DNA from: a virus
DNA: 64,000 nucleotides
Reading direction: 5' to 3' (one strand)
IMG/VR virus record: IMGVR_UViG_3300008117_003079
Coordinates: 1-64,000 of that record
Part shown: positions 16,416 to 34,834 of the stretch, piece by piece
Position numbering within the stretch: position 1 is the stretch's first letter
How the letters are laid out: every line of letters begins with the position of its first letter
Position numbers and translations under genes: made by a program
Notes under the pieces: model-generated
Database searches by the model: none
The model's input: the letters and a program-made list of their open reading frames with translations, nothing else
What the model was told of the DNA's origin: nothing

Positions 16416-19400
16416 TTATTCGTAAAATATACCTAATATCTGATTTAGTGGTGCAAATGTGCCTGTAAGTTTGTATGTATTACCCTTATACACAAACACT
16501 ATACCTTCATTAGGAACTATCTTACCCTTACCACCAATACTAGCTAATCTACTTAATTCCATTTTTAATTTAGCTATTTTAGATACATCACCACTACCTC
16601 TTACTTTTTCCGCAGTAGATTCCAATCTGTTTTTCATATCGGCAACTGCTGCATTTGGATTTGCAGTTAAAACTGAACTCATAAACGAAAGAACATCGGC
16701 ACCAACTCCCAAAAATATCTCTTCAAATTGTCTAACATTTTCTTTTTGTTGCTTTACTACATTTACTTTATCATTATCCATTGCCCACTTTTGAGCTTCC
16801 TTATCTACAATTGCATTTAAACGGAATGATTTATCACCAAACGCCCATCTCTTTATTAATGCATCTCTTTCAAATTTCTCTAATTTAACTTTTGATTTAT
16901 CTATAAAATTAGACCACCATGCTTGATGATATTCGGAAACACCATCGTTGTTAGATAATTGAAATTCAGATTGTAATTTTTGTAATTTACTTAAATACTT
17001 ACCTTGCTTTGAACTCAAATTTTCATTTTTAGGAAGTTGTGTAACAGGAGGTCCTTGTATAGTATATTTAGATTGAACATCCGCATTCACTTGCTTAATC
17101 ATCCCTGCCAATTTAGTTGCTGCAGATTGGTCAGCAGAAACTGCTTTACCACTTTCATCATAACAAGTTGTGTTATGAAATACCAATAAAGCCTGTCCGT
17201 AAGGAATAACATTTACAGAAGTTGGCCATATTACTTCCAAATTCATAAAACAATGTCCTTCATTAAATATTTTCTTTCGTTGTGGTTCCGAAAGAGATTG
17301 GATTGCCGCTGATAAATCTTTCATTGCAAAATTATATGCATCGGTTAATCCACCTCTACCACTAAATTTAGATGCAACATCTTCAATTCCCATTGCGTTT
17401 GCTCCACCATTTGCCAAATGTCCTTTGTTTCTTGCTGCAATCAATCTACCATTCTTCCAGCTAATTGCTAATGCCTGTCCATCGGTTTTTTCTCTTGTCA
17501 ATTCTAACTCACCAGTCAATGCTCCTGTGATTATATTTTTTAAATCACCAAAAGTTAAATCCATATCATCAAATGGGTGAGACATGTGACCGTATGCACC
17601 ACCTTCAGTTAAAATCGTTTCATTTGTCTTTTTTTTTAAGTTTCTTTTTTGAAGAACTAATTTATTTAATTCTGAAAATAAATCAGCAATATCTTTATCC
17701 AATTTTTTTTCATCAGCTGACATTGGGGATTCAATATCTACATTGGAATAAAGTTTTTTCTTTTTAGCAATTAAAGCATCTACTTTTTTAAGTAAATCAT
17801 TCTTTGCCGTATCTAAATCTTTTATTATATCTTCCGTTGATGATTCGTTTAGCTTAACCCCCGCATAATCTAATCTATATTCATAATACGCCTTTTTAAT
17901 ATCAGCAGGAATCTTTGAATTTTTAGTGAATATTTGGTCTACCATCTTACGAGTATCATTTGATGATAGATTCCATTTTAACTTATTTTTATCTAATGTA
18001 AAGAAAGTATTTAAAGTAAAATCTATCTTACTCAACATTGGTTTCAAAATTTCATTTTCAAAAAATGAATCGTATTCCTTTCGCTGCTCTCTCTCTAAAT
18101 AATTAAGAGCGAAGTTCCCATCATACAAATACGCTTTTAATGCTTTTCCAACCATCACCAACACATACTTTTTATCGTTAGGACCTAAATACTTTTCATC
18201 GGAATTACCAATCACATATGTGTACTGATTACCTACCAAGTCCTTTAATTTTACTTCGTTTAATTTACCGGTATCCGTTTTAAAGAATGGACCTCTTCTT
18301 ACACTTCTAAAATCTAAACTCATTTCGTTTCCAAAAATCTCTTTCGGTGCAAGTACTTTTACTCTAATAGTTCCATTTTTGTTATCTACACCTATTGTTT
18401 CAAAATCAATTTCGGAGTATTTTTTACCTTTAAATCCTAAATTTTTACCAGTAATAAACTTATGAACTTTACCACTACTAACTGCCTGTGCTTCACTTAC
18501 AGGTTCATATCCATTATCTTCGGTATCTTTTATATTGGGTTGATGTCCTGGCTGTCTTTTTCTATTATCATCAAAATCTACAGTATCTAATTCAGCTGAT
18601 TGCCCAATATCGTTCTTGTGATTGTTTGTAAAATCTTTTACGGCTTGAGATATAGATTCACCACGTGGTATTCTAAATGTTGTTGCCTTCTTACCATTGA
18701 TTGTAGGCATTCCGTGGTCATCTTTACCAATATCTTTAACGGTAACTCTTTTATTTTTAAACTTACCCATTAAAACCTCATCACCCTTATCAACATCTAC
18801 ATTAATATCTTCTTTGACAAAATCAGTTTCAACATATTCTACACTTGGTAAGTTTTTTATAGTATATTTTATAGTTCTTTCTTCCGCATCATCATCACCA
18901 AATATAGCATCTGCTTTTGGAAAATCGGTTTGAGTGTATCCACCATTCGCATACCAGGATTCAGGTCTATCGGAATCTAATTTTCTTTTTTTACCTTTTT
19001 TAATAAATGAACCATCTGGAACATCTGCGGTATTTGCAGTTCCAACATTACTAACCTCTGTGTAAATTTGTTTGTTGATTCTACCATATTCTCTCATAAG
19101 AATACCTGCTACGGCATGTGCTTGGTTTTCAACTGGCGAACCATCTGCCCCATCTTTAACTTCGTTTCGTATAAACCCCAACTCATCTTGTTTTCTATGA
19201 ACCATTTCATGTGCAAGTGTTCTCAATATATCCGCAGTTAATCTACCTTCAGTTGCAACATATATTGATTTACTAATCGGGTCATATCCACCCAACGATG
19301 TTTTGGCTTCTGCAAATTTTCTACCACCAACTAAAGTTATTTTTGGAGTTTCTTTTAATTTTAATCGTTTAGTTGCAAACTCTACAAAATTTTGAATAGA

Positions 19401-21611
19401 TTGTTGTTTTGTTTCTGAAAGATTTTCTTTCATCAAATCCGAAGCATTAGCCATAGATTGATTTTTAGTTCCTTCTTTTTTATATCTAGCAATCGTTTGT
19501 ATTAATTGTTCATCGGATAGTTTATAGTTTTGCATTATTTCTAATGTTTTTTCTATAAAGTTTGGTACAAATTTTTTCGTATCAAATCCTTCTTCTCCCT
19601 TTTTATTTTCAAATATACCAGCTACTCCCAATGCAATACCACCTGCAGAAGCTTGTGCCGCATTAGCACCTAAAGCTTCAAACGCAGAGTGTTTTATTAT
19701 GTCTTTAACTATGTAAGACCCCAAATGACCTCCACCAAATTTAGCTGCTATTTTTGCTCCGGCTGCTTGTGCAATACCACTAGCACTAGCACCTTTTGAT
19801 GCTGCAGATATGCCACCCATTAAACCACCTGTCGTTGCAATTGAACCCATTATTATTGCGGAAGTTTTTACAAAATTTCCAAGACCCTTTTTTTGTTTTT
19901 GACTTTCATTCCAAGACTTTTCTGCTAATTCCCGTTGTTCTGGAGTTAAATCTTTTCTATATACAGGTTCTTTTTTTGTTTTTGGTTTTCCTAATATAGT
20001 TTTAGCCTGTATAGGATTACCATTTTCATCTTTAATCGGATGTCCATGCTTATCTTCTTTGTAAACAGGAACATCTTTCATTTTAGGTTTTACTTTTCCT
20101 TGAAAATCTAGTTTACGAGTTGTTGAATCTGGTTCTGTAAAATCATCCCAATGTTTAGTTTTACCTTCTGAATCTTTAACAGCCCCAAATCTTCCAGTAG
20201 TTGCCAATGATTTTATAGCACTAGCAGTTCCCACCAGCATTTCTTTGTTATGCTTGAATGTATGCATAATACCATGCCCTACATACGATGCTGCTTTTTT
20301 TAGTATATTCATAGCCCCTTTTCTTTCTTCAGATTGTGGGTTATTTGCTTTATCAATTGATTCGTTATCTCCTTTTGATAAACCTTTTCTGGCATCAGTT
20401 ACTTGTTGACTTGTTTCCGCATCTTTCTTTTCTTTATCAGATTTTTCAGCAGACGCTTTTAATTCAGAACCACTTAATTTTTGAGGTGATGTAGGCGGTG
20501 GCGGAGGTGGTGGTGGTGGCGGTTTTGGGACACCTTGTTTTTGTTTCGTTGCATCCACCTTACCTTGTGCAGTAGCTCCCTTATTTACAGGTTGTCCAGG
20601 TTGTGATGGTTTTGGTTGATTTGCAGGTGCATCCGATGGTCCCTGTGCCATTCCTTTTTTCTTAACTGCATCAGCTTCAGCAGGAGTTAGGGTTCTGATT
20701 TTACCATCTTCAGATTTATGACTCGCAGGTTGTCCTTCTTTACCATAGTATCCACCACCCAAATGTTTCAATCCCATTTTTTCGGCTTCGGATTCTTCTT
20801 TGAAATATGTTCTGGTAAATTCTTCGAACATTTCTTCCATTGCAACTCTACCAATTATTTCTGCAATTGGATTATATAATTCGTCCGTTGGATGTTCAAT
20901 TTGATGTCGAGTAGGATGTGGTTCGGGTCTCATTTCATACGATGGCTTCGTATTATTAGTCTCATCTACTGAACCCGTTGGTGCTCCATTAATATATCCT
21001 CCTGGAAGATTTAATCCAGTTCCTATACCGCCTGGAAACCCATTTTCATTTAATTTACCTGTTATCATACCGAATACCTCTTTATCAAATTTTGGATATG
21101 CTTTTAAAAATCCCTTTTTCTTTTCATCATCACTTCCCTTACCTAACCAATTACGAACATCTGTTCCACTAATTGGGTTTGGTTCGGCGGGAACGGCATA
21201 TACATATCCAATTTCATCGTATCCGTATCCAGCTTTTTCGTTATATGGTTTAAAGTATTTACCCGCTAATCTATCTGCATCCTTTTCTCCAACTGCTGCT
21301 ACATACGCAGTAGTTTTACCATCAAATTGAGATAATATTTCTTTTGGAGCATACGGATTACGAACTTGAACTATCTTATCTTCCGGTATTCCAAACATTG
21401 TAGTAATTATTTTCACCTTCTCATTAAAATTAAAAGGAGATTTAGGACCTGATGTATCATTGGATGTTCCAATATATACATTTGATTTTCCAAATTTTTG
21501 AGCAAGCTTTAAATAAGAAACATAATGTCCCTTATGGAATGGTTGAAAACGACCTGAATATACTACTATGGTCCTTTTTACTATCGGTTTATCTTTTTCG
21601 TTCAAATTCAT
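16416..21611 (-). CDS. Giant prohead polyprotein: nucleotidyltransferase, zincin and ligase-like domains
   Basis: 1731 residues. Residues ~11-180: HxGH nucleotidyltransferase of the NMNAT/PPAT type (GRFQPFHKGH at 20-29, ISGTDVR at 147-153). A disordered Pro/Gln-rich linker has ten Pro at 364-373. About 577-667 is Ala/Gly-rich and hydrophobic, possibly membrane-active. Around 742-850 lies a zincin with HEMVH (801-805). Residues ~1341-1731 show DNA/RNA-ligase superfamily motifs: K1375-T-D-G, LEVI with Glu1459, EGIVF at 1702-1706 and K1714. L-x-E sites fall at domain edges: E189|N, E733|T, E1256|S, E1336|G. It is likely processed by gp21 and possibly injected with the DNA. The start follows a TATATTTATA motif by 3 bases. 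Confidence 0.75.
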   Translation of the reverse strand: MNLNEKDKPIVKRTIVVYSGRFQPFHKGHYVSYLKLAQKFGKSNVYIGTSNDTSGPKSPFNFNEKVKIITTMFGIPEDKIVQVRNPYAPKEILSQFDGKTTAYVAAVGEKDADRLAGKYFKPYNEKAGYGYDEIGYVYAVPAEPNPISGTDVRNWLGKGSDDEKKKGFLKAYPKFDKEVFGMITGKLNENGFPGGIGTGLNLPGGYINGAPTGSVDETNNTKPSYEMRPEPHPTRHQIEHPTDELYNPIAEIIGRVAMEEMFEEFTRTYFKEESEAEKMGLKHLGGGYYGKEGQPASHKSEDGKIRTLTPAEADAVKKKGMAQGPSDAPANQPKPSQPGQPVNKGATAQGKVDATKQKQGVPKPPPPPPPPPPTSPQKLSGSELKASAEKSDKEKKDAETSQQVTDARKGLSKGDNESIDKANNPQSEERKGAMNILKKAASYVGHGIMHTFKHNKEMLVGTASAIKSLATTGRFGAVKDSEGKTKHWDDFTEPDSTTRKLDFQGKVKPKMKDVPVYKEDKHGHPIKDENGNPIQAKTILGKPKTKKEPVYRKDLTPEQRELAEKSWNESQKQKKGLGNFVKTSAIIMGSIATTGGLMGGISAASKGASASGIAQAAGAKIAAKFGGGHLGSYIVKDIIKHSAFEALGANAAQASAGGIALGVAGIFENKKGEEGFDTKKFVPNFIEKTLEIMQNYKLSDEQLIQTIARYKKEGTKNQSMANASDLMKENLSETKQQSIQNFVEFATKRLKLKETPKITLVGGRKFAEAKTSLGGYDPISKSIYVATEGRLTADILRTLAHEMVHRKQDELGFIRNEVKDGADGSPVENQAHAVAGILMREYGRINKQIYTEVSNVGTANTADVPDGSFIKKGKKRKLDSDRPESWYANGGYTQTDFPKADAIFGDDDAEERTIKYTIKNLPSVEYVETDFVKEDINVDVDKGDEVLMGKFKNKRVTVKDIGKDDHGMPTINGKKATTFRIPRGESISQAVKDFTNNHKNDIGQSAELDTVDFDDNRKRQPGHQPNIKDTEDNGYEPVSEAQAVSSGKVHKFITGKNLGFKGKKYSEIDFETIGVDNKNGTIRVKVLAPKEIFGNEMSLDFRSVRRGPFFKTDTGKLNEVKLKDLVGNQYTYVIGNSDEKYLGPNDKKYVLVMVGKALKAYLYDGNFALNYLEREQRKEYDSFFENEILKPMLSKIDFTLNTFFTLDKNKLKWNLSSNDTRKMVDQIFTKNSKIPADIKKAYYEYRLDYAGVKLNESSTEDIIKDLDTAKNDLLKKVDALIAKKKKLYSNVDIESPMSADEKKLDKDIADLFSELNKLVLQKRNLKKKTNETILTEGGAYGHMSHPFDDMDLTFGDLKNIITGALTGELELTREKTDGQALAISWKNGRLIAARNKGHLANGGANAMGIEDVASKFSGRGGLTDAYNFAMKDLSAAIQSLSEPQRKKIFNEGHCFMNLEVIWPTSVNVIPYGQALLVFHNTTCYDESGKAVSADQSAATKLAGMIKQVNADVQSKYTIQGPPVTQLPKNENLSSKQGKYLSKLQKLQSEFQLSNNDGVSEYHQAWWSNFIDKSKVKLEKFERDALIKRWAFGDKSFRLNAIVDKEAQKWAMDNDKVNVVKQQKENVRQFEEIFLGVGADVLSFMSSVLTANPNAAVADMKNRLESTAEKVRGSGDVSKIAKLKMELSRLASIGGKGKIVPNEGIVFVYKGNTYKLTGTFAPLNQILGIFYE

Positions 21612-23275: not shown

Positions 23276-23818
23276 TTAGTTTTCGTAGTATAATGCAGGC
23301 CATTCAACAATAATATGAACCCCTCCTTCATTATACGCATTTGTGTATATCTTATAAATATCGTTTGGATTTTTTAATTCCCAAATTTTTGTAAATTGTA
23401 ATATAGATTTGAATTCTTGTGTATAATCGTTTCTATGTTGAATGCCTGGGTCTAATGGATTGGTGCTTCCTACACCTACTCTAATTATAATATTTGCATT
23501 TTTACCAGTCATGTTTTCAAACTTATCAGCATGATTTATTAACTGATTTGCCGCAGATACTAAAAAATCCCATCGTGGATAGAATGATATAACGGTTTTT
23601 CCTGTAATTGCCAATCCTAAACTGATTCCCATTTGAGTTTCTTCCATAACAGGTAGCTCAATCATTTTTTCTTTTGGTACTTCCGTTAAGGTTGTACTCA
23701 TTGGATTTCCAGCATAAACTATTTGTTGTCCAATGAAGATTGTATCTTCTTTTTGGGCAAGAAATGTCATTGCTTTGGATAATTCATCTTTATACGGAGA
23801 TGTTTGTGGAGTACTCAT
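23276..23818 (-). CDS. Truncated E1-beta-like thiamine diphosphate enzyme subunit
   Basis: 180 residues, about half of a 2-oxoacid dehydrogenase E1 beta subunit (325). It keeps the pyrimidine-binding domain: IELPVMEETQMGISLGLA (54-70) holds the Glu that activates the thiamine ring, followed by VISFYPRWDFLVSAANQLINHADKF and the region NIIIRVGVGSTNPLDPGIQH. The C-terminal transketolase domain is absent. Its partner is probably the E1-alpha-like protein at 32705-33334. Together they could decarboxylate a 2-oxoacid and transfer the C2 unit to a sugar. It starts 2 bases before the next gene, within the glycan island. Confidence 0.72.
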   Translation of the reverse strand: MSTPQTSPYKDELSKAMTFLAQKEDTIFIGQQIVYAGNPMSTTLTEVPKEKMIELPVMEETQMGISLGLAITGKTVISFYPRWDFLVSAANQLINHADKFENMTGKNANIIIRVGVGSTNPLDPGIQHRNDYTQEFKSILQFTKIWELKNPNDIYKIYTNAYNEGGVHIIVEWPALYYEN

Positions 23819-23819
23819 A

Positions 23820-24947
23820 TTATTTGTTTAAATGATTAAAATTATGACCTATGCAAATCTTATCGTTTACAAGGGTATGATTATTTATTTTATTTAGTTC
23901 TTCTAAAAATTCAGGAAACAATTCATGCTCTTCATTAAATACCTGTAATTCTTTTAATGTATCCGAATCATAGGTTCCCCAATCTACTAATTGTCTATAA
24001 TTTATGTCCAAATGAAATGTTGAATCTTTAAATATATTGGTTACTAATTCATAAAACGCAAACATTTCTTTGTAATTGTGTTTACTCACAACCATAGAAA
24101 CAATAAACCATCCTATTGTATCAACAGTTGATAAAAACTTTAGATTTTTAATTAACCTATCCCAATTACCATTTAATCTCGTTTTATTTTCATAGGTATC
24201 TTTTGTAGCAGCATCTATACTAACTTCAATTGTTTTGATGTAAGGACTTGCTTTCATTTGATTCCACAATTTTTCATCTAATAAATTACCATTTGTAATT
24301 ATTTGCAATTGTTCTAAATTAGGATATTTAGATATGTCAAAATTTATTAAATAATCTCTATAAATTTTTGAATAAAATGGGTCTCCACTACCTGTTATCA
24401 TAATTCTTTTTAGATTACTCGCAAAGTTATCTTCTATAGATTTTAGTAAATGTAGTTTTGCGTTATGTTGTGGTGATTCTAAATTATCATTTGGAATTAG
24501 AGATATTCTACAAGATGGGCATTTTAAATTGCAACTTCTATCAAACCCAAATAAAATTTCTTCTGGTGAAGTTTTAAAATTTACAATATCTTCTTCTGTG
24601 TGGATATTGTATACTTCTCTAAATTCTTCAATTTTCCTAAAAAAATATGGGGTTCTATCAGTATTTATTAGTTCATTTAATCTTGGACATATCGTATGGT
24701 CGCAATATTTATAGCTACCGTCTAAAACGGATTTACGAATATTTTGTGCCCGTACTGATGTCCAATTTCTCATTACATCATCGGTTTCATCTACTGGAAA
24801 CCAATTTTCATTTCCATTAGAATCTACTCTGATATTGTGTGGTGCCCAAGATGGGCAACACACAAATTGAGATACAGTTTGTACATCGGAATACATAAAT
24901 GGCATTTCACAAACGTATTTTTTAAGTATCTCTTTTTTATCATTCAT
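23820..24947 (-). CDS. Radical SAM protein with flanking Cys clusters
   Basis: 375 residues. FGFDRSCNLKCPSCRISL (about 132-150) gives the CxxxCxxC ligand set for the [4Fe-4S] cluster that reduces S-adenosylmethionine. MITGSGDPFYSK follows as the GGEP-like SAM contact, then LEQLQIITNGNLL and VSIDAATKDTYE, typical of the barrel. Extra Cys occur N-terminally (VCCPSW, YCDHTICP) and could bind a second cluster. It overlaps the epimerase gene by one base. Chemistry unknown; sugar epimerisation or methylthiolation are possible. Confidence 0.78.
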   Translation of the reverse strand: MNDKKEILKKYVCEMPFMYSDVQTVSQFVCCPSWAPHNIRVDSNGNENWFPVDETDDVMRNWTSVRAQNIRKSVLDGSYKYCDHTICPRLNELINTDRTPYFFRKIEEFREVYNIHTEEDIVNFKTSPEEILFGFDRSCNLKCPSCRISLIPNDNLESPQHNAKLHLLKSIEDNFASNLKRIMITGSGDPFYSKIYRDYLINFDISKYPNLEQLQIITNGNLLDEKLWNQMKASPYIKTIEVSIDAATKDTYENKTRLNGNWDRLIKNLKFLSTVDTIGWFIVSMVVSKHNYKEMFAFYELVTNIFKDSTFHLDINYRQLVDWGTYDSDTLKELQVFNEEHELFPEFLEELNKINNHTLVNDKICIGHNFNHLNK

Positions 24948-25939
24948 TATGGTTTCGAATTTGGATTGTATTGATGTTTGTTTGTTTTATACCACTCAAT
25001 GGTTTCTTTTAGAGCTTGTTTTAAATCTCTTTTTGGTTTCCAACCCAAATCATTAATCTTTTTAGAAGATAATAATCGAATCGGAATCATTGGTGCTTTA
25101 TTATTTACATACTCAATAGGATTAGTGTTTCCATCTAATTCTTTAATTGTGGCAAGTGTTTCGTTTACTGTAAATCCTTCACCATAACATACATTGAAAA
25201 TATCATATGTATCATTGTTCTCTGCAACAAAGATAAAACCATCTGCCATATCTTCAACGTGCAACAAATCTCTCACTTCTGTTCCATCCCCCCAAACAGG
25301 AATAGGATTCAATCCATCTGCTACTTTACGGATGTTAGCAGGAGTAACGTGACACTTTTCGTAATCAAATTTATCATTTGGTCCGAATGCATTAGATGGT
25401 CTAACAATCAAACATTGCATTGGTTCGTGAATCTGATTAGAAAAGAAATCACATAACATCTCACCATACCGTTTCATACCACCAACTGCTTTGTAAACTG
25501 GTAACATTGGAGTTGCGTGTACATTTATATCTTCAGTACAAAATTCAGTACCCATATCTGGATATGTTGTATTTGATGAAATAAATAAGAATTTACGAAC
25601 TTTATTTTTCCAACTTTGTTCCATTAAATTCGTATTCATCTCCACATTTGGAGTGACGTGAAGTAATGGATTGAATTTGGTATCCAACGCGTTTGATGTA
25701 TTTGCTGCACAATGGAATACTACATCTACATCTTTACTAACCAACTCACAAAACTCTGCAGTTTGTAAATCTCCTTTAATGTGTTCTACATTTTCAGTAC
25801 CTTCGAAATCGTTTCTTAAATCTCTACTAAATGAGGTTGAGCGTAGGTTTTTGTACCCCTTTTCCCAAAGTAATCTTAATAAATGTGAACCAATAAATCC
25901 ACTTGCACCTGTAACTAAAATCTTGTCTGTTTTTTTCAT
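24947..25939 (-). CDS. NAD-dependent sugar epimerase/dehydratase
   Basis: 330 residues. TGASGFIGSHLLRLL (about 10-24) is the Rossmann GxxGxxG nucleotide site; DVVFHCAANTSN and LIVRPSNAFGPNDKF follow the extended-SDR pattern. It probably interconverts nucleotide sugars. The usual YxxxK is not clean: the Lys in GGMKRYGE is preceded by Val at the Tyr position, while a Tyr lies three residues earlier, so the catalytic base is uncertain. It overlaps its neighbours and belongs to the island operon. Confidence 0.82.
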   Translation of the reverse strand: MKKTDKILVTGASGFIGSHLLRLLWEKGYKNLRSTSFSRDLRNDFEGTENVEHIKGDLQTAEFCELVSKDVDVVFHCAANTSNALDTKFNPLLHVTPNVEMNTNLMEQSWKNKVRKFLFISSNTTYPDMGTEFCTEDINVHATPMLPVYKAVGGMKRYGEMLCDFFSNQIHEPMQCLIVRPSNAFGPNDKFDYEKCHVTPANIRKVADGLNPIPVWGDGTEVRDLLHVEDMADGFIFVAENNDTYDIFNVCYGEGFTVNETLATIKELDGNTNPIEYVNNKAPMIPIRLLSSKKINDLGWKPKRDLKQALKETIEWYKTNKHQYNPNSKP

Positions 25940-25947
25940 AACTTTTT

Positions 25948-26991
25948 TTATTTAAATATATCCCATTTTAAAACTACATCATTTACAAATTTATGAGTTA
26001 ATATGGATGATGTGTGTCCATACCAACTTCTTTCTAAATACTTTTTTTGTTCCTCAATACTCATACCGTTCATCTCTCTCCATAAAACTTTTGGCAGATT
26101 ATCTTTCTCCAATTCGAAATTAAAATTTCTTATACTCCATTCTATTATTCCTCCGTATAAAGATACTAAATTTTCTTCAAAAAACCAAAAATATCTACTA
26201 AAATCTATCTTATCTGCATAAGTTTTTACATACGCATTATCAAATTCTAATTGTTTTTGTTCCCAAGTATTACAAATATCTTTATTTTCAATTATACACT
26301 CATAAACTGATTTATTGGTTGGTGTATGATAATATGGTGGGGTTCTACCTTCTCTTAAATAATTTTTAGAAAAGTTATTACTCATATTAAAAAACTTTAT
26401 TTTTGTAATTCCATTTATTTCTAAAAAGTTGAGCAATAATAAAATATATTCGAACCATTCAAAATATCTTTCATTATAAGTCATAACTTTATCCAACCAT
26501 TCAAATGTAACTGGGTCTATATTAATAGGATTTTTGGTTGGATTGAAACCACCAGTTAAATGAAAATAACCATGTTCGTATTCTGTTGTTTTATCTTTAC
26601 CACCTATTAAGTAATCACTGGTATGTACCCAGCTATCATTTTGTTTAATATAACTGATTGCAGGGTTTTTGTTAGATTCATATTTTTCAGGTGAAATAAA
26701 AAATGAATTTCGTGTCAGAGTTGTCCATTGAGCAACTACCGATATATCATTTGGGTTTACACCTTGCTTTAATAAATCAGAAACTTTGTAAATAATAGAA
26801 CGAGCAATTGTTTTATTATCATGTGTAATAGTTCCATAATTATGTAATGTGTGTGTATCTTTTAATTTTTCTTGCAACCAATTGGCCCAAGTCCAATTTT
26901 CTATCGGGTCTCGTTCCCATCTTCTTTCATCACCAATATTAATTCTAAAATTGTTAGTAAATGAACAACCTGATACTACTATATGTTTCAT
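25948..26991 (-). CDS. SGNH/GDSL-like protein 1
   Basis: 347 residues. VVSGCSFTNNFRI at the N-terminus is the Ser-containing block I of SGNH/GDSL hydrolases in the GCSFT form common in phage and glycan clusters. SVVAQWTTLTRNSF resembles a later strand. A clear DxxH/HPN block was not found, so activity is uncertain; an acyl-transfer or deacetylation role on a polysaccharide is the family precedent. It overlaps the second SGNH gene by 4 bases, and the two are likely co-translated. It is one of three such genes in the island. Confidence 0.62.
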   Translation of the reverse strand: MKHIVVSGCSFTNNFRINIGDERRWERDPIENWTWANWLQEKLKDTHTLHNYGTITHDNKTIARSIIYKVSDLLKQGVNPNDISVVAQWTTLTRNSFFISPEKYESNKNPAISYIKQNDSWVHTSDYLIGGKDKTTEYEHGYFHLTGGFNPTKNPINIDPVTFEWLDKVMTYNERYFEWFEYILLLLNFLEINGITKIKFFNMSNNFSKNYLREGRTPPYYHTPTNKSVYECIIENKDICNTWEQKQLEFDNAYVKTYADKIDFSRYFWFFEENLVSLYGGIIEWSIRNFNFELEKDNLPKVLWREMNGMSIEEQKKYLERSWYGHTSSILTHKFVNDVVLKWDIFK

Positions 26992-27704
26992 ATATAATTT
27001 AATGTTTGTAATTTATTTGATAGAAAATTTGCCCACATTTCATGTCCTTCTTTATTAGGATGTTCATTTTCAGTTGTTTTAGTGTATCCACCAAATGTTT
27101 CTTTTAAAAAATTTGGATAATTTGATATTTCATTATCTGAAATCATGCAGTTATCCCATCCAAAAAAGTGCAAATGTTTATAACCATTTAATTCCAAATA
27201 TGCATATAGTGATTTTATATAATTTTTTGTTTTATTTATTTGATATTCTGTATCTAAAAAATATCTTATAAATCTTTGAAAATCATTATCATATAATTCT
27301 ATTAATTTTTTTCTGTCTTCATCCGTTCTATTATAATCTATATTTTCATTCATTACAAATTTAGTAAAATTCCCATAAAAATTTACATCTTTTAGTATTT
27401 TATCTGCCGATGCGTGTAATGCGTTTGGTATTGTAAAATACCAGTTCTTATTATTGTGTGTTGTAATAAGTTCTGTACGAATATAATTCGTCCATTGAAT
27501 TATTAATACATCTTCTTTTTTAAATTCTTCATTTAAAATATAAAATACTTTTCTAAAAACATAATCGTTGGATGCTCCACAATTTCCAAAGTTATAACAA
27601 TCTACTTTATGTTTTTCAGAAAGTAATTTTGTATAATTTTCTATTTCACAATTTTCTAACCCCTGACCTTCTGTAAACGAGCATCCAACGGAATATAATT
27701 TCAT
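26988..27704 (-). CDS. SGNH/GDSL-like protein 2
   Basis: 238 residues, nearer the canonical family length. Block I is GCSFTEGQGL (8-17); FGNCGASNDYVFRKVFYIL fits block II/III with Gly and Asn; and near the C-terminus NEHPNKEGHEMWANFL fits block V with catalytic His. The catalytic triad therefore looks complete, unlike its neighbour. Probable esterase or acyltransferase acting on a glycan. It starts at the stop of the upstream SDR gene and overlaps the downstream SGNH gene. Confidence 0.7.
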   Translation of the reverse strand: MKLYSVGCSFTEGQGLENCEIENYTKLLSEKHKVDCYNFGNCGASNDYVFRKVFYILNEEFKKEDVLIIQWTNYIRTELITTHNNKNWYFTIPNALHASADKILKDVNFYGNFTKFVMNENIDYNRTDEDRKKLIELYDNDFQRFIRYFLDTEYQINKTKNYIKSLYAYLELNGYKHLHFFGWDNCMISDNEISNYPNFLKETFGGYTKTTENEHPNKEGHEMWANFLSNKLQTLNYI

Positions 27705-28702
27705 TACAATCTACTTTTGTATTCTAAAATTGATTTTGTTAAACCTTCTTTCAAAGATGTTTGTGGTAAAATTCCATATTTTTTTTGCTTATCAGCTCCT
27801 AAACATCTAATTGGGTCACCATTTGTTTTGGTTTCATCCCATACTATGTTTTTAGTTTTGCCTGTAATTTCGGTATAACACTCGACAATGGTTTCAATTG
27901 TATCTTTGATACTTACTGCTTCTGCACATCCAAAGTTGATAATATCCCTAACTTCTTTTTTAACAACATCAATCGATGCCTGTGCAACATCATCTCCAAA
28001 TACAAAATCCCTTTTAGATGAACCATTACCCCAACAAACCATATCATCACCTTCTACATTGAATAGTTTCCAAATGTTAGATGATATTACAGTTGCATCT
28101 TGTGCAAAGTTATCGTTTGTTCCGTAGATATTTGAAGGTCTGATTACAGTCCAATTATCCCAACCATACTGAACTCTCAATGAATCCAAAGTAAGTTCTC
28201 CCATTCTTTTTGTCCAACCTGGATGCCAATCTAAACGAGATGGAGTTGATGCCCAAGTTTCTTCCTGATTCCATGTATCTTCTTCGTTCATTATATCTGC
28301 TGGTCTATAAACCCCAACCGATGAAAGATACACAAACCAATCAACTTTGGCATCAAACGATGCTTTAATCATATTGGTGTTAAACATCAACATTGGGAAT
28401 AGATAATCAGCAGGACAAGTTGATGACCTTGCTGGTGAACCTTTTACTCCTGCGATATGTAATACAATATTAATATCATCTAACTTAAATAAATTCTCAC
28501 AATGTGAAAGATATGTTAAATCGGTTTTAACCAATTCCAATCTATCTGTGTATTGTGCTTTTAAGAAGTTTAAATTTTCACTAAATTTAAGGTCTACTGC
28601 ATATACTTTATCAGCTCCTTCTTCTAAACATTTTCTAACGGTTGGTAATCCTACCAACCCATTTGCTCCTGTAACCAGAACGGTTTTTCCTTTTAATTCC
28701 AT
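27704..28702 (-). CDS. NAD-dependent sugar epimerase/dehydratase
   Basis: 332 residues. TGANGLVGLPTVRKC (10-25) is the GxxGxxG site; IVLHIAGVKGSPARSS and VIRPSNIYGTNDNF match extended SDRs such as UDP-glucose 4-epimerases and GDP-fucose synthases. The active-site block reads HPGWTKRMGE, where Pro holds the place usually taken by the catalytic Tyr (YGWSKRxGE in many relatives). This matches the irregular motif of the 24947 gene. It is probably in the nucleotide-sugar branch of the island. Confidence 0.8.
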   Translation of the reverse strand: MELKGKTVLVTGANGLVGLPTVRKCLEEGADKVYAVDLKFSENLNFLKAQYTDRLELVKTDLTYLSHCENLFKLDDINIVLHIAGVKGSPARSSTCPADYLFPMLMFNTNMIKASFDAKVDWFVYLSSVGVYRPADIMNEEDTWNQEETWASTPSRLDWHPGWTKRMGELTLDSLRVQYGWDNWTVIRPSNIYGTNDNFAQDATVISSNIWKLFNVEGDDMVCWGNGSSKRDFVFGDDVAQASIDVVKKEVRDIINFGCAEAVSIKDTIETIVECYTEITGKTKNIVWDETKTNGDPIRCLGADKQKKYGILPQTSLKEGLTKSILEYKSRL

Positions 28703-28709
28703 TTTATTT

Positions 28710-30113
28710 TTATTTTGTTGTGTAATCTATTTTTATTTTTTCAAATATTTCATCAAAACACTCATAGTTTTCAAATGAGTATATATGCTTTTGGTTATAT
28801 AATAATATATCAATTATTGAATAATACCAATTATGTAATTCCTCAATTGGCATGTTTTTTAGTTTAATTAATTCTTTTTCTAAAAGTAACATTCGCTTTT
28901 TAGGGTCTTTTTCTAAATCATAACTTTCATCTATAAATGGTTCAAAGGTTTTAAACCCTAATCTCCGTAATTCTGCTAATGTTAAATAATCCCCAAATAC
29001 TAAAAATGGTTGTAAATTTGATATTGGTTTAAATATTTTTTCTGAAAGGAATACGTTTGGTCCAAAGAATGTTTCGGTTACTAAATGAAAATATGAATTT
29101 GCGTACCATTCTTTTTTATTATTTCTAACTCCAAATGCTCTTTTTTTATCAGATGGCAATTCCTTTGTATCATCTTCATAAGGTAATAATTTCTCTAATT
29201 CAGATGTATATTTTTCAACATTTTCCTCCGTATCCTCATATACTTTATTTACAATATTTTTTAATATATTTTTTTCTAATTTTTCAATAAATGTAAATAA
29301 TCCATCTTTTAATAAATCGTATTTTAGTGCAAAATATCCCAACATAGTTCTTTGTGGTTTATTCATTGTTCTATTTGGGGATAAAAATTTATGTTTTCTA
29401 ATTTTAGTGGAATCTAAATCTTTTTCTTCAAGTAACTCACACAAATATCCCAAATTACCAATCATTGGAAATGAATTTATTTCATCGGCATATCCTCTTA
29501 TAAATAAATGCCCATTATATATTTTTATTTTACTATCAGGATATATTTCATAGTATTCCGAAAATTTACTTCCTCCTAAAATTATGATATTAGAAGCATC
29601 TACTCCTAATTCATTTAATTGGATTTCAAATTGTTGTATATTGTGTGAATCATATAAAGGGTCATGTATCATATTTACTAATATTTTTACTTTGCCCGAT
29701 TTAATTAAATCAAATAATTCAGGTTCTATAATGTCTTTTAAAAACCAAGTATATTCTGTATCATTTAACAAAAAACTGTTTTTATTATGTAGTGCAGAAA
29801 GTGTATCTTTTATTTCTAATGGATATACATAAATGAAATCATCATCTTTAATTTGATTAAATGATATTATATTTTTAGGAAAATTTCTAGAAAAATAATT
29901 AAACAATTCCGAATGGTCGAATTTTATACCCTTTTGTTCTGATTTATATTGTAGTATTTCATACCAATCTATTTTTAAATTGTTTTTTAAAACATATTGA
30001 ATAAATTTAGTAATAACAGGATGCATTCCATTACCAAATGGCTTGAGTTGACCGTGGTCAATATACCAATCGGTATATATCATTTTAAAATTTGAACCAT
30101 GTATTGCATTCAT
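28710..30113 (-). CDS. Putative glycosyltransferase (paralogue group A)
   Basis: 467 residues from ATG 30113 (MNAIHGSNFKMIYTDW). An upstream ATG at 30140 would overlap the preceding gene by 26 bases, so the internal start is preferred. The C-terminal third has ETFFGPNVFLSEKIFKPISN ... PFLVFGDYLTLAELRRLGF ... FEPFIDESYDL, matching the 21626 protein almost residue for residue. The upstream half (VNMIHDPLYDSHNIQQFE; NIIILGGSKFSEYYEI) suggests the acceptor-side Rossmann domain of a GT-B enzyme. The substrate is unknown. Confidence 0.6.
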   Translation of the reverse strand: MNAIHGSNFKMIYTDWYIDHGQLKPFGNGMHPVITKFIQYVLKNNLKIDWYEILQYKSEQKGIKFDHSELFNYFSRNFPKNIISFNQIKDDDFIYVYPLEIKDTLSALHNKNSFLLNDTEYTWFLKDIIEPELFDLIKSGKVKILVNMIHDPLYDSHNIQQFEIQLNELGVDASNIIILGGSKFSEYYEIYPDSKIKIYNGHLFIRGYADEINSFPMIGNLGYLCELLEEKDLDSTKIRKHKFLSPNRTMNKPQRTMLGYFALKYDLLKDGLFTFIEKLEKNILKNIVNKVYEDTEENVEKYTSELEKLLPYEDDTKELPSDKKRAFGVRNNKKEWYANSYFHLVTETFFGPNVFLSEKIFKPISNLQPFLVFGDYLTLAELRRLGFKTFEPFIDESYDLEKDPKKRMLLLEKELIKLKNMPIEELHNWYYSIIDILLYNQKHIYSFENYECFDEIFEKIKIDYTTK

Positions 30114-30114
30114 A

Positions 30115-31074
30115 TTAATATCTGTATATTTTTTTAACATTATTTCCTACATAATTGTTATCGTGAAAGAAACTTTCAAATAACAATTCATTTTTTATAT
30201 AATCTTTAGTACACATTAAATTAAAAATATTATCTGAAATTTCTGGTGATAGATTATAATTTATATTAGCATTCAGCATATCATTTACGAAATTTTTAAT
30301 TCCATCTACTATTTTTATTTTATCACTAAAGTATTTTTGATTTTCTGTATCGTTTTCGTTTATAAACTCACCATTAACAATATCGATATATGTTCCAACT
30401 TTATCGGTAAATACTGATTCAAAGAATATGATATTGTTTTTAAAATTACATTTTTCAAAATCATAAAAACCTTTTGTATTTTTCAAATCTATATTTCCTT
30501 TATAGGTCATATACCTGCCTTTCAAATCCAAATCAAATGTTTTTTGTAAATAATATTGAGTAGTACCTTGATAACCACTATCTACCATATATACATTTTT
30601 ACATTCTCCAATCGTATTATTAATATATTTTCTATACGAATCTCTTAATACCTTTGATTTACCCAATATATCTGGAGCACATAAATTTAAATTTGGTAAT
30701 CTATTTGAAGTATCAATTTGAATATCATTTTCAATAATGTAATTTATTTGAAATCTATCTTTAAGTAATTCGGATAAATTACCTTGGTATCTATGTAAAT
30801 TAAATGATTCATAAACATCATATTCAGATACAAACGAAGATAGTGATGCCAATTTTCTTGATGTTTTAAAATAAACTGAATTTGGTAAATTATATTTTAT
30901 TTTAAAATCTTGATATAATTGATTAAGAAAATATCCTTCTCGTGAGTTAAATAAAATCAAATCACCGTCTTTTACTTCATCTTTTAACCAATTAAAATAA
31001 TTAAATACTAATGGTCCAAAAAAGATATAACCAAGTTCTTCCAATGATTCTGGATTTTTAACAATGTGGTCCAT
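30115..31074 (-). CDS. COG5610-like glycan-cluster protein
   Basis: 319 residues. LGYIFFGPLVFNYFNWLKDEV ... LILFNSREGYFLNQLY ... KTSRKLASLSSFV (about 13-90) fits the region of COG5610-type proteins of polysaccharide clusters (consensus from memory: YGPLLxxFxxWL, FLARDGYLL, YVSRRA), where it follows a HAD-like part that is absent here. The Asp of FLARDGYL is Glu here (SREGYF). Function in the family is unclear, probably sugar modification or transfer. It shares a boundary base with the HAD gene, so the two may act as split parts of one larger protein. Confidence 0.6.
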   Translation of the reverse strand: MDHIVKNPESLEELGYIFFGPLVFNYFNWLKDEVKDGDLILFNSREGYFLNQLYQDFKIKYNLPNSVYFKTSRKLASLSSFVSEYDVYESFNLHRYQGNLSELLKDRFQINYIIENDIQIDTSNRLPNLNLCAPDILGKSKVLRDSYRKYINNTIGECKNVYMVDSGYQGTTQYYLQKTFDLDLKGRYMTYKGNIDLKNTKGFYDFEKCNFKNNIIFFESVFTDKVGTYIDIVNGEFINENDTENQKYFSDKIKIVDGIKNFVNDMLNANINYNLSPEISDNIFNLMCTKDYIKNELLFESFFHDNNYVGNNVKKIYRY

Positions 31075-31505
31075 TATAAATAAACTTTAAATGAAGGTAT
31101 ACCAAGTGAATTCCACAAATCAATTATTTCTTGTTTATCATCAAATGCACAAAACACATCATCTTTGATAAAATCATTGTACATTTTTCGTTTTAATTCT
31201 ACATCTTTAATATAATGATTTTCTTCACCTCTCATAAACAATCCATCATATTTAATCCCATATATTTCTAACCAATCCTGTGTAGAATTAAGTATCATTC
31301 GTGGTCTACTAGTTAGTATATAAATCCCATAATCATTATATAGGTGATTTATAATATCAATCATAGGTGCGTTTGGTTTATCTGATATTACATTTTTATA
31401 ATCATATAAAACATCCCAATCGATACTACCATCAGATTTAGTTGCAAGTGCATACCTCTTTTTATTTATTGAAAGAGTATTATCTATATCTACTATAACA
31501 ATCAT
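31074..31505 (-). CDS. HAD-family phosphatase (T4 Pnkp-phosphatase-like)
   Basis: 143 residues. VDIDNTLSI holds the DxDxT nucleophile block (Asp6, Asp8), YILTSRPR holds the second Ser/Thr block, and FDDKQEIIDLW near the end supplies the acidic metal site. The spacing resembles the small phosphatase domain of T4 polynucleotide kinase. In this setting it could dephosphorylate a sugar phosphate or act on nucleic-acid ends; sugar use is favoured by the neighbours. It overlaps the radical SAM gene by 4 bases. Confidence 0.75.
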   Translation of the reverse strand: MIVIVDIDNTLSINKKRYALATKSDGSIDWDVLYDYKNVISDKPNAPMIDIINHLYNDYGIYILTSRPRMILNSTQDWLEIYGIKYDGLFMRGEENHYIKDVELKRKMYNDFIKDDVFCAFDDKQEIIDLWNSLGIPSFKVYL

Positions 31506-32701
31506 TTTCGTAAACCTTGTTCTTTATAAGTTACTGGTATTTTAATACCAGTATTACACCCATTACAATTATCACAAAATGTGATGTATCCAAGTTCGGT
31601 AAATCCCAAATCAAACTTAATTAAATCTTTGGGGTATACTTCTGATAAATTTACATAATCATTTTCGTTTGGTGAAAACAATTTAGTTAGAACTGCGCTT
31701 GTATTAAGGTGACAATAATAAAACTTGCCATCATTCAATCCTCTAAATGGAGCAGTGCAACTATCAAAGTGATTTATGAGTTCTTCTTCACTCATATTAT
31801 TTTTAATTCTCAAATCACCAAAATCATACCACTCGATATTATTCCTTACATAGTGATTGATATTTTTCTCTTGGTAAGTTCCTAAAACTCTATCAACTTT
31901 ACTTTTTAATTTTTCTAATTTATTAGAGTAATTACTTACACTTAAAATAACATTATTATTTTTTAACACTTCTAGTATTTCTTCTTTTGGGAGGACTGTA
32001 CCATTAGTGGTTATTATAAACTTATCAATCTTATCTGAATACTTTTCTAAAATGTATTCGATTACATCTTTGATATTTGGGTGTAAAAACGGCTCTCCAC
32101 CAACTAAATGGAAAATACTTACATAATCAACAAGATTAAAATATAAGTCAATATCATTTAAGATAGTTTGAGTATCTCTGTGTTTTGGTAGTTCGTAATG
32201 TGGTATAAACATATTACAAAACGAACACGCCAAATTACATTTTTCAGTCACCAATACATCTGTTTGAAATATGTGAACCTTTTGTTTGTGTATAAATGGC
32301 CAAATAGATGCAATGTTTTTATACCAAGTATATTTTACATTTAGTTTATCTAAATATTCTTTATAGTATTGTCTATACTCATCTGATGTGATAATTACAT
32401 TTTCACCAGTTGGTTCAAAGTTATCTATATGAACTAATTTTAAATTCTCACGAGTGTTGACGAGGTTTTTTGATTGATGATAAAATGAACTAATTTCGTT
32501 TACATTCAATATAGTTGATTCATCTTTAACATCGTGGTCAACTATGTATTTTATTTTTAAAACATTATTACCCAACAAATAATCTACACTTCTAATAAAT
32601 TGGACACACTCTTTACTTGCACCGAATAGAACATATTCGGTTTCAGTATCCCATTCTTGGATAAATTTCTCAAAATTATGTAGATTAGGATTATATTTCA
32701 T
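31502..32701 (-). CDS. Radical SAM protein with N-terminal Rossmann-like domain
   Basis: 399 residues. Residues ~15-120 (VLFGASKECVQFIRSVDYLL ... YIVDHDV ... NVIITSDEYRQY) look like the sugar-linked Rossmann domain of polysaccharide-cluster proteins. From ~145 VTEKCNLACSFCNMFIPHY carries the CxxxCxxC cluster, followed by HLVGGEPFLHPN (GGEP SAM site) and FIITTNGTVLP. Near the C-terminus TFCDNCNGCNTG gives CxxCxxC, a likely auxiliary cluster (SPASM-like). It probably carries out radical chemistry on a nucleotide-linked or glycan sugar. Confidence 0.75.
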   Translation of the reverse strand: MKYNPNLHNFEKFIQEWDTETEYVLFGASKECVQFIRSVDYLLGNNVLKIKYIVDHDVKDESTILNVNEISSFYHQSKNLVNTRENLKLVHIDNFEPTGENVIITSDEYRQYYKEYLDKLNVKYTWYKNIASIWPFIHKQKVHIFQTDVLVTEKCNLACSFCNMFIPHYELPKHRDTQTILNDIDLYFNLVDYVSIFHLVGGEPFLHPNIKDVIEYILEKYSDKIDKFIITTNGTVLPKEEILEVLKNNNVILSVSNYSNKLEKLKSKVDRVLGTYQEKNINHYVRNNIEWYDFGDLRIKNNMSEEELINHFDSCTAPFRGLNDGKFYYCHLNTSAVLTKLFSPNENDYVNLSEVYPKDLIKFDLGFTELGYITFCDNCNGCNTGIKIPVTYKEQGLRK

Positions 32702-32704
32702 ATA

Positions 32705-33334
32705 TTAAAATACTACCCATTTACCACTTCCGTAGTGCGGATACTTTGATTTATATTTGTAGTGAATTACATCGGATGGAATATCTTTCTTTTTATTCCA
32801 AGTTGCTTCCGTTGGTGTGTAAGTTGAAACATCATTATCTTCAACTATAAAATGTAAAGGTAAATCAAAATTTCTAGCGTATTTATGAACTTCATAGAAT
32901 ATACCACTCTCAAAACTCATATCTCCTATAAATACCCAAACCTTTTCATCACTACCTTTGGCCTTAATTCCCATTGCTACACCCAATGCAATAGAAAGAG
33001 TTCCACCTACAATTGCGGATGAATAAAACTTCTCATCTATCTTACAAAGAGTTATAGATTTACCATCAAGTATTTCATCGGTAATCCATTGTGGAGATAT
33101 TCCTTTTAATAAAGCATGGTAGTGAGACCTCCAAGTTGAAAACACCCAATCGTTTTTAGATATTCTTTTGAATACCTCTATTAGTTGTTCTTCATTTCCG
33201 TTTGATAAGTGAATTGGTCCTCTGATTTTACCATCTTCCCAGTTTTGAACTATATCATTCTCAAACTGAATGAGTTCTTCTGCATTCCAATTATGTTCTC
33301 TAACTATTGGATATTGTTCTAAATTTTGTATCAT
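32705..33334 (-). CDS. Truncated E1-alpha-like thiamine diphosphate enzyme subunit
   Basis: 209 residues (ordinary E1 alpha ~370). GGTLSIALGVAMGIKAKG precedes the thiamine-diphosphate fingerprint: G137-D138-M ... N167, a 31-residue GD-to-N span typical of the pyrophosphate-binding site. The region HYHALLKGISP aligns with the HxHxL area of E1 alpha. The C-terminus is short. It likely pairs with the E1-beta-like protein at 23276-23818 to form the whole active site across a subunit interface. It is followed by the epimerase and RmlC-like genes, and overlaps the RmlC-like gene by 4 bases. Confidence 0.75.
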   Translation of the reverse strand: MIQNLEQYPIVREHNWNAEELIQFENDIVQNWEDGKIRGPIHLSNGNEEQLIEVFKRISKNDWVFSTWRSHYHALLKGISPQWITDEILDGKSITLCKIDEKFYSSAIVGGTLSIALGVAMGIKAKGSDEKVWVFIGDMSFESGIFYEVHKYARNFDLPLHFIVEDNDVSTYTPTEATWNKKKDIPSDVIHYKYKSKYPHYGSGKWVVF

Positions 33335-33867
33335 CTATCTCTTTTTTGTAGTATTGGATTGTTTGTTGGCCATTCCATTTGATATTCAGGGTCATTCCAC
33401 TTTACCACACCTTGTTCATTTGCATCCACATAACCGTCTTTGTAAAATAAGTTATAGTGAAACATACAATCAGTTAATGCATAGTGTCCGTTTGCAAATC
33501 CTGGTGGAACTAATACCTGATTTCTTAATCTTTCCGTTATAATAAAACTTTCCCACTCCCCAAAGGTAGGACTATTTTCTCTCATATCCAAAACAACTAA
33601 ATAGATATCACCTACTGCTGCTTGTACCAATTTCCAAGTCTTTTTATCCCAGTGTAATCCTCTCAATACACCTTTATAAGAACGAGAGAATCTACCATGT
33701 ACTTCACATTTGCCATCGATATAATCAACTATTGGGTGCTCAATTGAATGAAATGTTGTCCATATTTCACCTCTGTATTCTCTAAATACGGATGGTTGAA
33801 ATACTGGAACCTCATGTCCAAATTTTTTTGATGGAGTAATTTGAAACTCATCCCATTTACTACTCAT
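33331..33867 (-). CDS. RmlC-like dTDP-sugar 3,5-epimerase or isomerase
   Basis: 178 residues, the RmlC size. GVLRGLHWDKKTWKLVQAA (about 66-84) is the conserved cupin segment in which His of GLHW acts as base; GDIYLVVLDMRENSPTFGEW and PPGFANGHYAL complete the family signature. It likely epimerises C3/C5 of a 4-keto nucleotide sugar. The start is ATG 33867 with a 4-base overlap to the E1-alpha gene; next to it lies an epimerase gene, so they plausibly act in the same pathway. Confidence 0.82.
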   Translation of the reverse strand: MSSKWDEFQITPSKKFGHEVPVFQPSVFREYRGEIWTTFHSIEHPIVDYIDGKCEVHGRFSRSYKGVLRGLHWDKKTWKLVQAAVGDIYLVVLDMRENSPTFGEWESFIITERLRNQVLVPPGFANGHYALTDCMFHYNLFYKDGYVDANEQGVVKWNDPEYQMEWPTNNPILQKRDR

Positions 33868-33868
33868 A

Positions 33869-34834
33869 TTATGTATTATTTGCGTATCCTAAAGGAAATC
33901 CATTTCTAAATTCTGCTCCCATTTTTGGAACAATCATTTGGTATGCGTGAATTAATTCTTCGATACCTCTATCTAACCCCCACTCTGGTACCCATCCAGT
34001 TTCCTCTAGCTTTGCGTTAGAAACTATGTAATCCCTCTTATCGGGGTCTTCGTAATAATCGTTGTATGATACGGCAAAATCCTTTACCTGGGATTGAATC
34101 TTTTCTAATAATTCTTGCTTTGAAAGATTGGCATTACTCAACCCTACATTAAATACTTGTCCTTTATATTTTTCGTAATTTATAATCATAAATAAAAATG
34201 TAAATGCTACATCTTGAATATGAATAAAATTTCTCTTAAAGTTTTTCTCAAATACTACAATGTATTTATCAGTAATTGCTTTATAAACAAAATCGTTTAC
34301 CAATAAATCGGTTCTCATACGAGGTGATACACCAAATACAGTTGCCAATCTAAATGTAATTGCCGATGTGGTTGCTCTTAAAAAAGTTTCAGCATCACAC
34401 TTTGTTTGTCCATACACTGATATAGGTGTTAAAGGTGAATCTTCGGTGCATTCAGTTTGTCCAACTCCAATACCATAACCACTATTTGTATTTGGATATA
34501 AAATTTTTTTATCCTTTGCAAATTTTACTATGTTACATATTTGGTCAAAATTGATTTCCCTTGCCAGCTTTGGGTCTGCTGCGCAAGCTGGGAACCCAAC
34601 AATTGCAGCTAATGGAATTATTACATCAGCTTCATTACACAACTTTTCTAAAAGAGATTCATTACGAACATCTCCATATATGAATTTGAATTTAGGATTT
34701 GAAGTATATTGTAATAATGAGGTTTGATTAAATAATAGTTTATCCAATACTACTACCTTATAGTTTTGTTCCAATAACATACCAACTAATACAGAACCCA
34801 AATAACCTGCACCACCTGTAATTAATACTTTCAT
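33869..34834 (-). CDS. NAD-dependent epimerase/dehydratase with intact YxxxK
   Basis: 321 residues. ITGGAGYLGSVLVGML is the nucleotide site; ADVIIPLAAIVGFPAC follows the extended-SDR pattern; and SVYGQTKCDAETFL keeps the catalytic Tyr and Lys. FRLATVFGVSPRMRTDL and NFIHIQDVAFTFLF match sugar-epimerase strands. This is the only one of the three island SDRs whose YxxxK motif looks canonical. It probably makes the 4-keto sugar used by the RmlC-like protein encoded downstream. Confidence 0.85.
   Translation of the reverse strand: MKVLITGGAGYLGSVLVGMLLEQNYKVVVLDKLLFNQTSLLQYTSNPKFKFIYGDVRNESLLEKLCNEADVIIPLAAIVGFPACAADPKLAREINFDQICNIVKFAKDKKILYPNTNSGYGIGVGQTECTEDSPLTPISVYGQTKCDAETFLRATTSAITFRLATVFGVSPRMRTDLLVNDFVYKAITDKYIVVFEKNFKRNFIHIQDVAFTFLFMIINYEKYKGQVFNVGLSNANLSKQELLEKIQSQVKDFAVSYNDYYEDPDKRDYIVSNAKLEETGWVPEWGLDRGIEELIHAYQMIVPKMGAEFRNGFPLGYANNT

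Follow-up and report, generated by a model that had tools for sequence, protein, structure and literature searches.

A candidate minimal E1-type thiamine enzyme encoded as two short chains in a heptose-gene island of a phage

Enzymes dependent on thiamine diphosphate (ThDP) are defined as a superfamily by a pyrimidine (PYR) domain with a catalytic glutamate and a pyrophosphate (PP) domain with a GDX25-30N motif (PMC2831816). For two E1-type pairs of sugar pathways that lack E2 and E3, AviB1/AviB2 (avilamycin) and Pau11/Pau12 (paulomycin), the proposed role is to attach a two-carbon unit derived from pyruvate to C4 of a keto sugar (PMC4425429, PMC4753412). A nucleotide-bound 4-keto sugar likewise receives a C2 branch from the ThDP enzyme YerE, the yersiniose A synthase (PMC4753412), although YerE is a single-chain flavoprotein of another ThDP fold and not an E1-type pair. 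On its own, E. coli pyruvate dehydrogenase (PDH) E1 joins C2 units from pyruvate to aldehydes in vitro (PMC7696235). In cyanophages S-SM2 (SSM2_198) and P-TIM68 (gp190), a fused 402-residue 'transketolase central region-containing protein' forms phrog_34187, a PHROG family of unknown function. Here, we have analysed 64,000 nucleotides of phage DNA (the window), the first 64 kb of the 94,186-bp virus record IMGVR_UViG_3300008117_003079, which encodes two short proteins, alpha and beta, that are very likely the PP and PYR subunits of one ThDP enzyme of the E1 family.

Phrog_34187 has the same minimal PP and PYR domains, and most of each of the two window open reading frames (ORFs) aligns with it (of its 405 positions, alpha matches 2-197 at 1.4e-53 and beta 235-401 at 5.9e-24). 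The cyanophage gene also lies in a lipopolysaccharide/heptose gene island, but it encodes one chain, stands beside a Zn-alcohol dehydrogenase and a sugar kinase, and no Cj1427/RmlC set was recognised there. As judged from the published descriptions, AviB1/AviB2 and Pau11/Pau12 share with the phage proteins the E1-alpha/beta type of pair placed in a sugar pathway, but they are encoded by adjacent genes in actinobacteria and have a hexose as acceptor, and Pau11 and Pau12 have 325 and 345 residues compared with 209 and 180 in the phage. Text searches of the literature found no described phage E1 or transketolase of this kind.

32705..33334, minus strand: alpha, E1-alpha-like minimal PP-domain subunit, 209 residues, with H42, R69, H71, GD137-138...N167 and the tail YxYxxxxPHxGxGKWxxF that contains H200
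23276..23818, minus strand: beta, E1-beta-like minimal PYR-domain subunit, 180 residues, with catalytic E59, R82/D84 and Q127-H128, and without a TKC domain

Fold, cofactor residues and absent domains

Both ORFs are complete at these ends and are separated by 8,886 bp on the same strand. A preliminary description of this DNA had placed two short ORFs with complementary E1 cofactor sites 9 kb apart in one island, and our positions, lengths, family matches and folds agree with it. The phage nature of the DNA, the conserved family and the fused forms had no place in that description. Alpha matches Pfam E1_dh (1e-14) and NCBIfam PDH_E1_alph_y (1e-24), and beta matches NCBIfam PDH E1-beta (1.5e-8) and Transket_pyr (2.4e-5; at 24.5 bits, just below the Pfam cut-off of 27). 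When profiles of 48 alpha and 51 beta relatives were searched against the PDB, they led to human PDH E1-alpha (7.5e-15) and E1-beta (9.5e-7), respectively. The AlphaFold models of both chains are confident (predicted local distance difference test scores of 87.5 for alpha and 92.4 for beta). Superposition of the alpha model on human PDH E1-alpha gives a Z score of 16.5 over 192 residues, compared with 12.4 for DXS, and the beta model scores about 23 on E1-beta, 19 on DXS and 17 on transketolase. Thus E1 outranks both transketolase and DXS for alpha and for beta, in sequence and in fold.

The residues predicted to bind and activate the cofactor are conserved. E59 of beta aligns with the catalytic glutamate of E1-beta and, like H128 and R82, shows no variation among non-redundant relatives (56/56); of the two glutamates named earlier, E59 and E60, it is therefore E59 that counts, as E60 does not align with the catalytic residue. 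In alpha, G137, D138, H42 and R69 are invariant (51/51) and N167 is nearly so (50/51). The predicted GD...N site is thus present, with a spacing of x28 instead of the x29 first given, which is within the canonical range. Between them, the two chains carry the PYR glutamate and the PP motif of the superfamily, and alpha is akin to E1_dh and beta to E1-beta, as in E1 enzymes of the alpha2beta2 type.

The fold and the ThDP residues are shared with human and bacterial PDH and branched-chain ketoacid dehydrogenase E1, but several parts of these enzymes are absent. Relative to E1-alpha, a stretch of about 50 residues that would join the GD...N core to the histidine loop is missing from alpha, as is everything behind the loop, so that part of the PP domain itself is gone and not merely an extra domain, as had been supposed. 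Beta, with 180 residues, has no TKC domain, a domain that belongs to E1 as well as to transketolase and DXS. In seven viral records of 94-245 kb, in which positive controls worked, neither a TKC domain (PF02780) nor an E2 catalytic domain (PF00198) was found; the reported lack of E2 holds for these records, while E3 was not searched for separately. An E2 partner could come from the host.

Alpha is not simply cut off, because a conserved tail with its histidine is retained. The motif YxYxxxxPHxGxGKWxxF can be recognised in huge phages as well as in bacteria and archaea, and the histidine is kept in the minimal sequences compared. Alignments of the alpha model with human PDH E1-alpha end at 198/261, 205/268 and 206/269, a constant offset that places H200 on human position 263, which we take to be the histidine of the active-site loop. 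Since the local confidence of the model is low, the equivalence of H200 and PDH His263 is a good inference and not a measurement.

Pairing, selection and distribution

That the two chains very likely form one enzyme follows from their being fused in cyanophages and in one archaeon and adjacent in cellular genomes. The fusions are the 402-residue proteins of S-SM2 and P-TIM68 and a 395-residue protein of an archaeal genome (locus L189), and adjacent genes are found in loci of cellular metagenome-assembled genomes (e.g. L168, L169, L170, L171, L173). In phages, alpha has a same-strand beta gene no more than 10 kb away in 72 of 80 loci, at spacings from 6 bp to 9.3 kb, and the 9-kb separation in the window is due to the genes that lie in between. 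Such a pair would act as a heteromer.

Alpha is encoded in at least 144 viral contigs and beta in at least 117. Neither chain is decayed: in dozens of phages the unfused proteins keep stable lengths (208-231 residues for alpha, 171-203 for beta), their catalytic residues are near-invariant, and the ratio of non-synonymous to synonymous substitution rates (dN/dS) is 0.13 for alpha and 0.08 for beta. The label 'truncated' given in the preliminary description is misleading, since the chains are conserved short forms. Its proposal of a minimal thiamine enzyme fared better. Fold, cofactor residues, natural fusions, co-occurrence and purifying selection together make a minimal two-chain enzyme without E2 and E3 well supported. 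Two other origins were discarded. A remnant of a broken single gene is ruled out because starts, lengths and selection are all kept in relatives, and an ordinary E1 with a missed extension is ruled out because the adjacent genes either directly adjoin the ORFs or overlap them, and relatives stop at the same tail.

The minimal alphas form a clade of their own. In the tree they and the full-length E1-alphas fall into separate groups with support of 100/100, and in the phylum of the Parcubacteria locus L173 full-length E1-alphas score 66-86 bits against the profile, compared with 168-411 for minimal forms. The minimal form is rare in the sampled phyla, with 1/286, 1/297 and 1/288 genomes in three of them and 6/279 in an archaeal phylum, counts that each include the genome through which the phylum was chosen. 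One archaeal contig (L171 and L190) has two distinct minimal alpha/beta pairs in a single glycan cluster, with about 10 kb between them. Beta is fused in L041, L043 and L051 to a domain of roughly 400 residues that resembles the probable glycosyltransferases of the island. The phage-type island also occurs in two contigs filed under metagenome-assembled genomes of Pelagibacterales and Flavobacteriales (L165, L167), which probably come from phages and were binned with the bacterial genomes.

The GDP-heptose neighbourhood

Large terminase, capsid, portal and tail genes, named by eye from their translations, are found in the window, and a second record of this virus, of 201,940 bp, is 100% identical to it over the 20-kb stretches compared. 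The genes of the pair sit in an island of genes for sugar-nucleotide enzymes, glycosyltransferases and radical SAM proteins, which includes several short-chain dehydrogenases/reductases (SDRs).

33331..33867, minus strand: RmlC-type cupin, closest to C. jejuni GDP-4-keto-heptose C3(/C5)-epimerases, with a 4-bp overlap with the start of alpha
33869..34834, minus strand: SDR, homologue of PDB 6VO6/6VO8 (Cj1427-type GDP-heptose C4-dehydrogenase), 355 bits, 2.7e-105
24947..25939, minus strand: SDR, GDP-fucose-synthase/C4-reductase-like, Lys conserved, Tyr of the YxxxK position absent
27704..28702, minus strand: SDR, GDP-fucose-synthase-like, Tyr of YxxxK also absent (DWxPGWTKRMGE)
28710..30140, minus strand: probable glycosyltransferase family, no Pfam match
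23820..24947, minus strand: radical SAM protein directly upstream of beta, accessory (11/51 loci)
31502..32701, minus strand: radical SAM protein directly downstream of alpha, accessory (17/51 loci)
31074..31505, minus strand: HAD phosphatase (PNKP-type)

We counted neighbours in 51 phage loci with full flanks, assigning genes by best hit. A near-constant set surrounds alpha: the cupin (48), beta (47), the two other SDRs (48 each), the probable glycosyltransferase (48) and the Cj1427-like SDR (49, of which a few may be other SDRs given the best-hit assignment, the lowest epi321 match being 23% identical). In 50 of 80 loci, an RmlC-type cupin gene is found upstream of alpha at a distance of no more than 300 bp.

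The SDR at 33869-34834 is about 53% identical, by eye from the alignment, to PDB 6VO6/6VO8, which we take to be the GDP-heptose C4-dehydrogenase Cj1427. The cupin scores 135 bits with the C. jejuni GDP-4-keto-heptose C3/C5-epimerases (7AN4 and kin), compared with 86 bits with classical dTDP RmlC. As far as the available parts of PMC10680097 and PMC7949155 go, Cj1427 of Campylobacter jejuni is a GDP-heptose C4-dehydrogenase (PMC10680097), the two window genes are close relatives of the C4-dehydrogenase and the C3/C5-epimerases (DdahB/MlghB, DdahC/MlghC) of its pathway, and no ThDP enzyme is described there. In the SDRs at 24947-25939 and 27704-28702, the catalytic Lys region is kept (MKRYGE, TKRMGE) without the catalytic Tyr four residues earlier, a state conserved in alignments of 72 and 47 sequences, respectively; these sequence features suggest that the two proteins possibly have a non-redox or altered chemistry.

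Further heptose genes accompany the pair. A GmhA-like SIS gene is found in the window's own record, and three of six large phage records, the 201,940-bp record among them, encode an HddA-type heptose kinase. In L173, the pair occurs with GMD, GDP-fucose-synthase-like, RmlC, Cj1427-like, HddA-like and HddC-like genes, and beside HddC there is a genuine split transketolase (253 + 301 residues). As a core partner, radical SAM is doubtful from the phage counts listed above, yet such genes flank the minimal pair in several archaeal loci and in a 735-kb phage (L186, L187, L188, L189, L190 and L003).

Other genes were seen in passing. The window encodes a 1731-residue protein (16416-21611, minus strand) with a nucleotidyltransferase-like start (GRFQPFHKGH), unusually long for such a domain. 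By eye, the larger record of the window's virus has a GroEL-like chaperonin gene (L196:4495-6114, minus strand), and another large phage contig has an apparent Bacteroidota TonB-dependent receptor of 1090 residues (L199:8286-11558, plus strand) between an HddA-like kinase and GroEL.

Proposed reaction and its alternatives

Like AviB1/AviB2, the phage proteins are an E1-type pair within a nucleotide-sugar cluster that makes a 4-keto sugar. As the neighbours are GDP-heptose-pathway genes, GDP-4-keto-heptose is the likeliest acceptor at hand, and because it is encoded beside genes making an activated 4-keto-heptose, the pair probably adds a two-carbon branch to that sugar. By analogy, we give an even chance to the proposal that the minimal pair, without E2 and E3, catalyses a decarboxylative C2 transfer in which the ketone at C4 of GDP-4-keto-heptose is the acceptor. 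ThDP would be held at the alpha/beta interface, where Glu59 of beta would activate the aminopyrimidine ring and GD...N of alpha would hold the Mg-diphosphate. An acyl carbanion would be formed from a 2-oxoacid, most likely pyruvate, and no E2 or E3 would be needed. The carbanion would attack the C4 ketone of a GDP-activated 4-keto-heptose that the Cj1427-type dehydrogenase produces and the RmlC-type epimerase modifies, giving a C4-branched (nonose-type) sugar, which the two SDRs and glycosyltransferases may turn into a phage-encoded surface or virion glycan. The idea of C2 transfer forming a branched sugar, raised in the preliminary description, gains from the conserved GDP-4-keto-heptose-pathway neighbours and from the AviB1/AviB2 and YerE precedents, and the transfer itself stays a proposal.

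Several points weigh against this proposal. The donor and acceptor are derived from the neighbouring genes; much of the canonical PP domain is absent from alpha; and the last eight residues of alpha are modelled at low confidence. Moreover, the cyanophage and several archaeal loci have no clear Cj1427/RmlC set and carry other heptose or radical SAM genes, which suggests that the acceptor may vary among members.

Alternatively, the pair could be a 2-oxoacid decarboxylase or a carboligase that uses an acceptor other than the sugar nucleotide; its product might be, for example, an aldehyde, an acyloin or an acyl donor, which a further enzyme would then link to the glycan. This would fit the chemistry of the E1 family, and two-chain minimal ThDP decarboxylases do exist. 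Sulfopyruvate decarboxylase (SPDC) ComDE and AzcB/AzcC likewise consist of two short chains with PYR and PP domains only, and AzcB/AzcC (9u8q) is among the structure matches of beta. These belong to a ThDP family other than E1, SPDC being listed apart (PMC2831816), and AzcB/AzcC ranks far below E1-beta among those matches. With no acyl-carrier or E2-like protein found in the viral records, where the search covered E2 only, and with a near-constant linkage to a 4-keto-sugar pathway, we regard this alternative as unlikely.

A dedicated minimal transketolase, moving a ketol (glycolaldehyde) unit between sugar phosphates to give sedoheptulose-7-phosphate (S7P) or a higher ketose as GDP-heptose precursor, also seems improbable to us. 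DXS and transketolase are structural relatives, GmhA-like SIS, HddA-like kinase and HddC-like genes accompany the pair, and an S7P supply encoded by a phage or a member of the candidate phyla radiation would make sense. But both chains are closer to E1 in sequence and fold, which makes a general transketolase less likely, the L173 cluster already has its genuine split transketolase, and two different minimal pairs on one archaeal contig fit specific sugars better than one general reaction.

That the pair is a non-catalytic remnant or stuffer DNA, as may be imagined from the shortness of the chains relative to known E1 and from the role suggested for cyanophage lipopolysaccharide clusters (PMC3037559), is very improbable, for the catalytic residues are invariant across phages, bacteria and archaea, dN/dS is about 0.1 and both halves are retained together.

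Extending the C2-transfer proposal, we tentatively suggest, as a possibility and less than an expectation, that the phage, candidate-phylum bacterial and archaeal proteins form a clade, so far undescribed, of minimal E1-type ThDP synthases with about 390 residues in two genes or one, which would convert GDP-4-keto-heptoses into C4-branched nonoses; neither this sugar class nor its pathway is described in the literature surveyed. Our analysis offers a concrete, assayable function for phrog_34187, and likewise for a glycan module of many uncultured viruses whose purpose may be virion decoration, host-surface change or stuffer. If true, the pair would rank with the smallest thiamine enzymes of E1 type and would connect heptose chemistry to C-C branching in a way that may be useful for the enzymatic synthesis of rare sugars.

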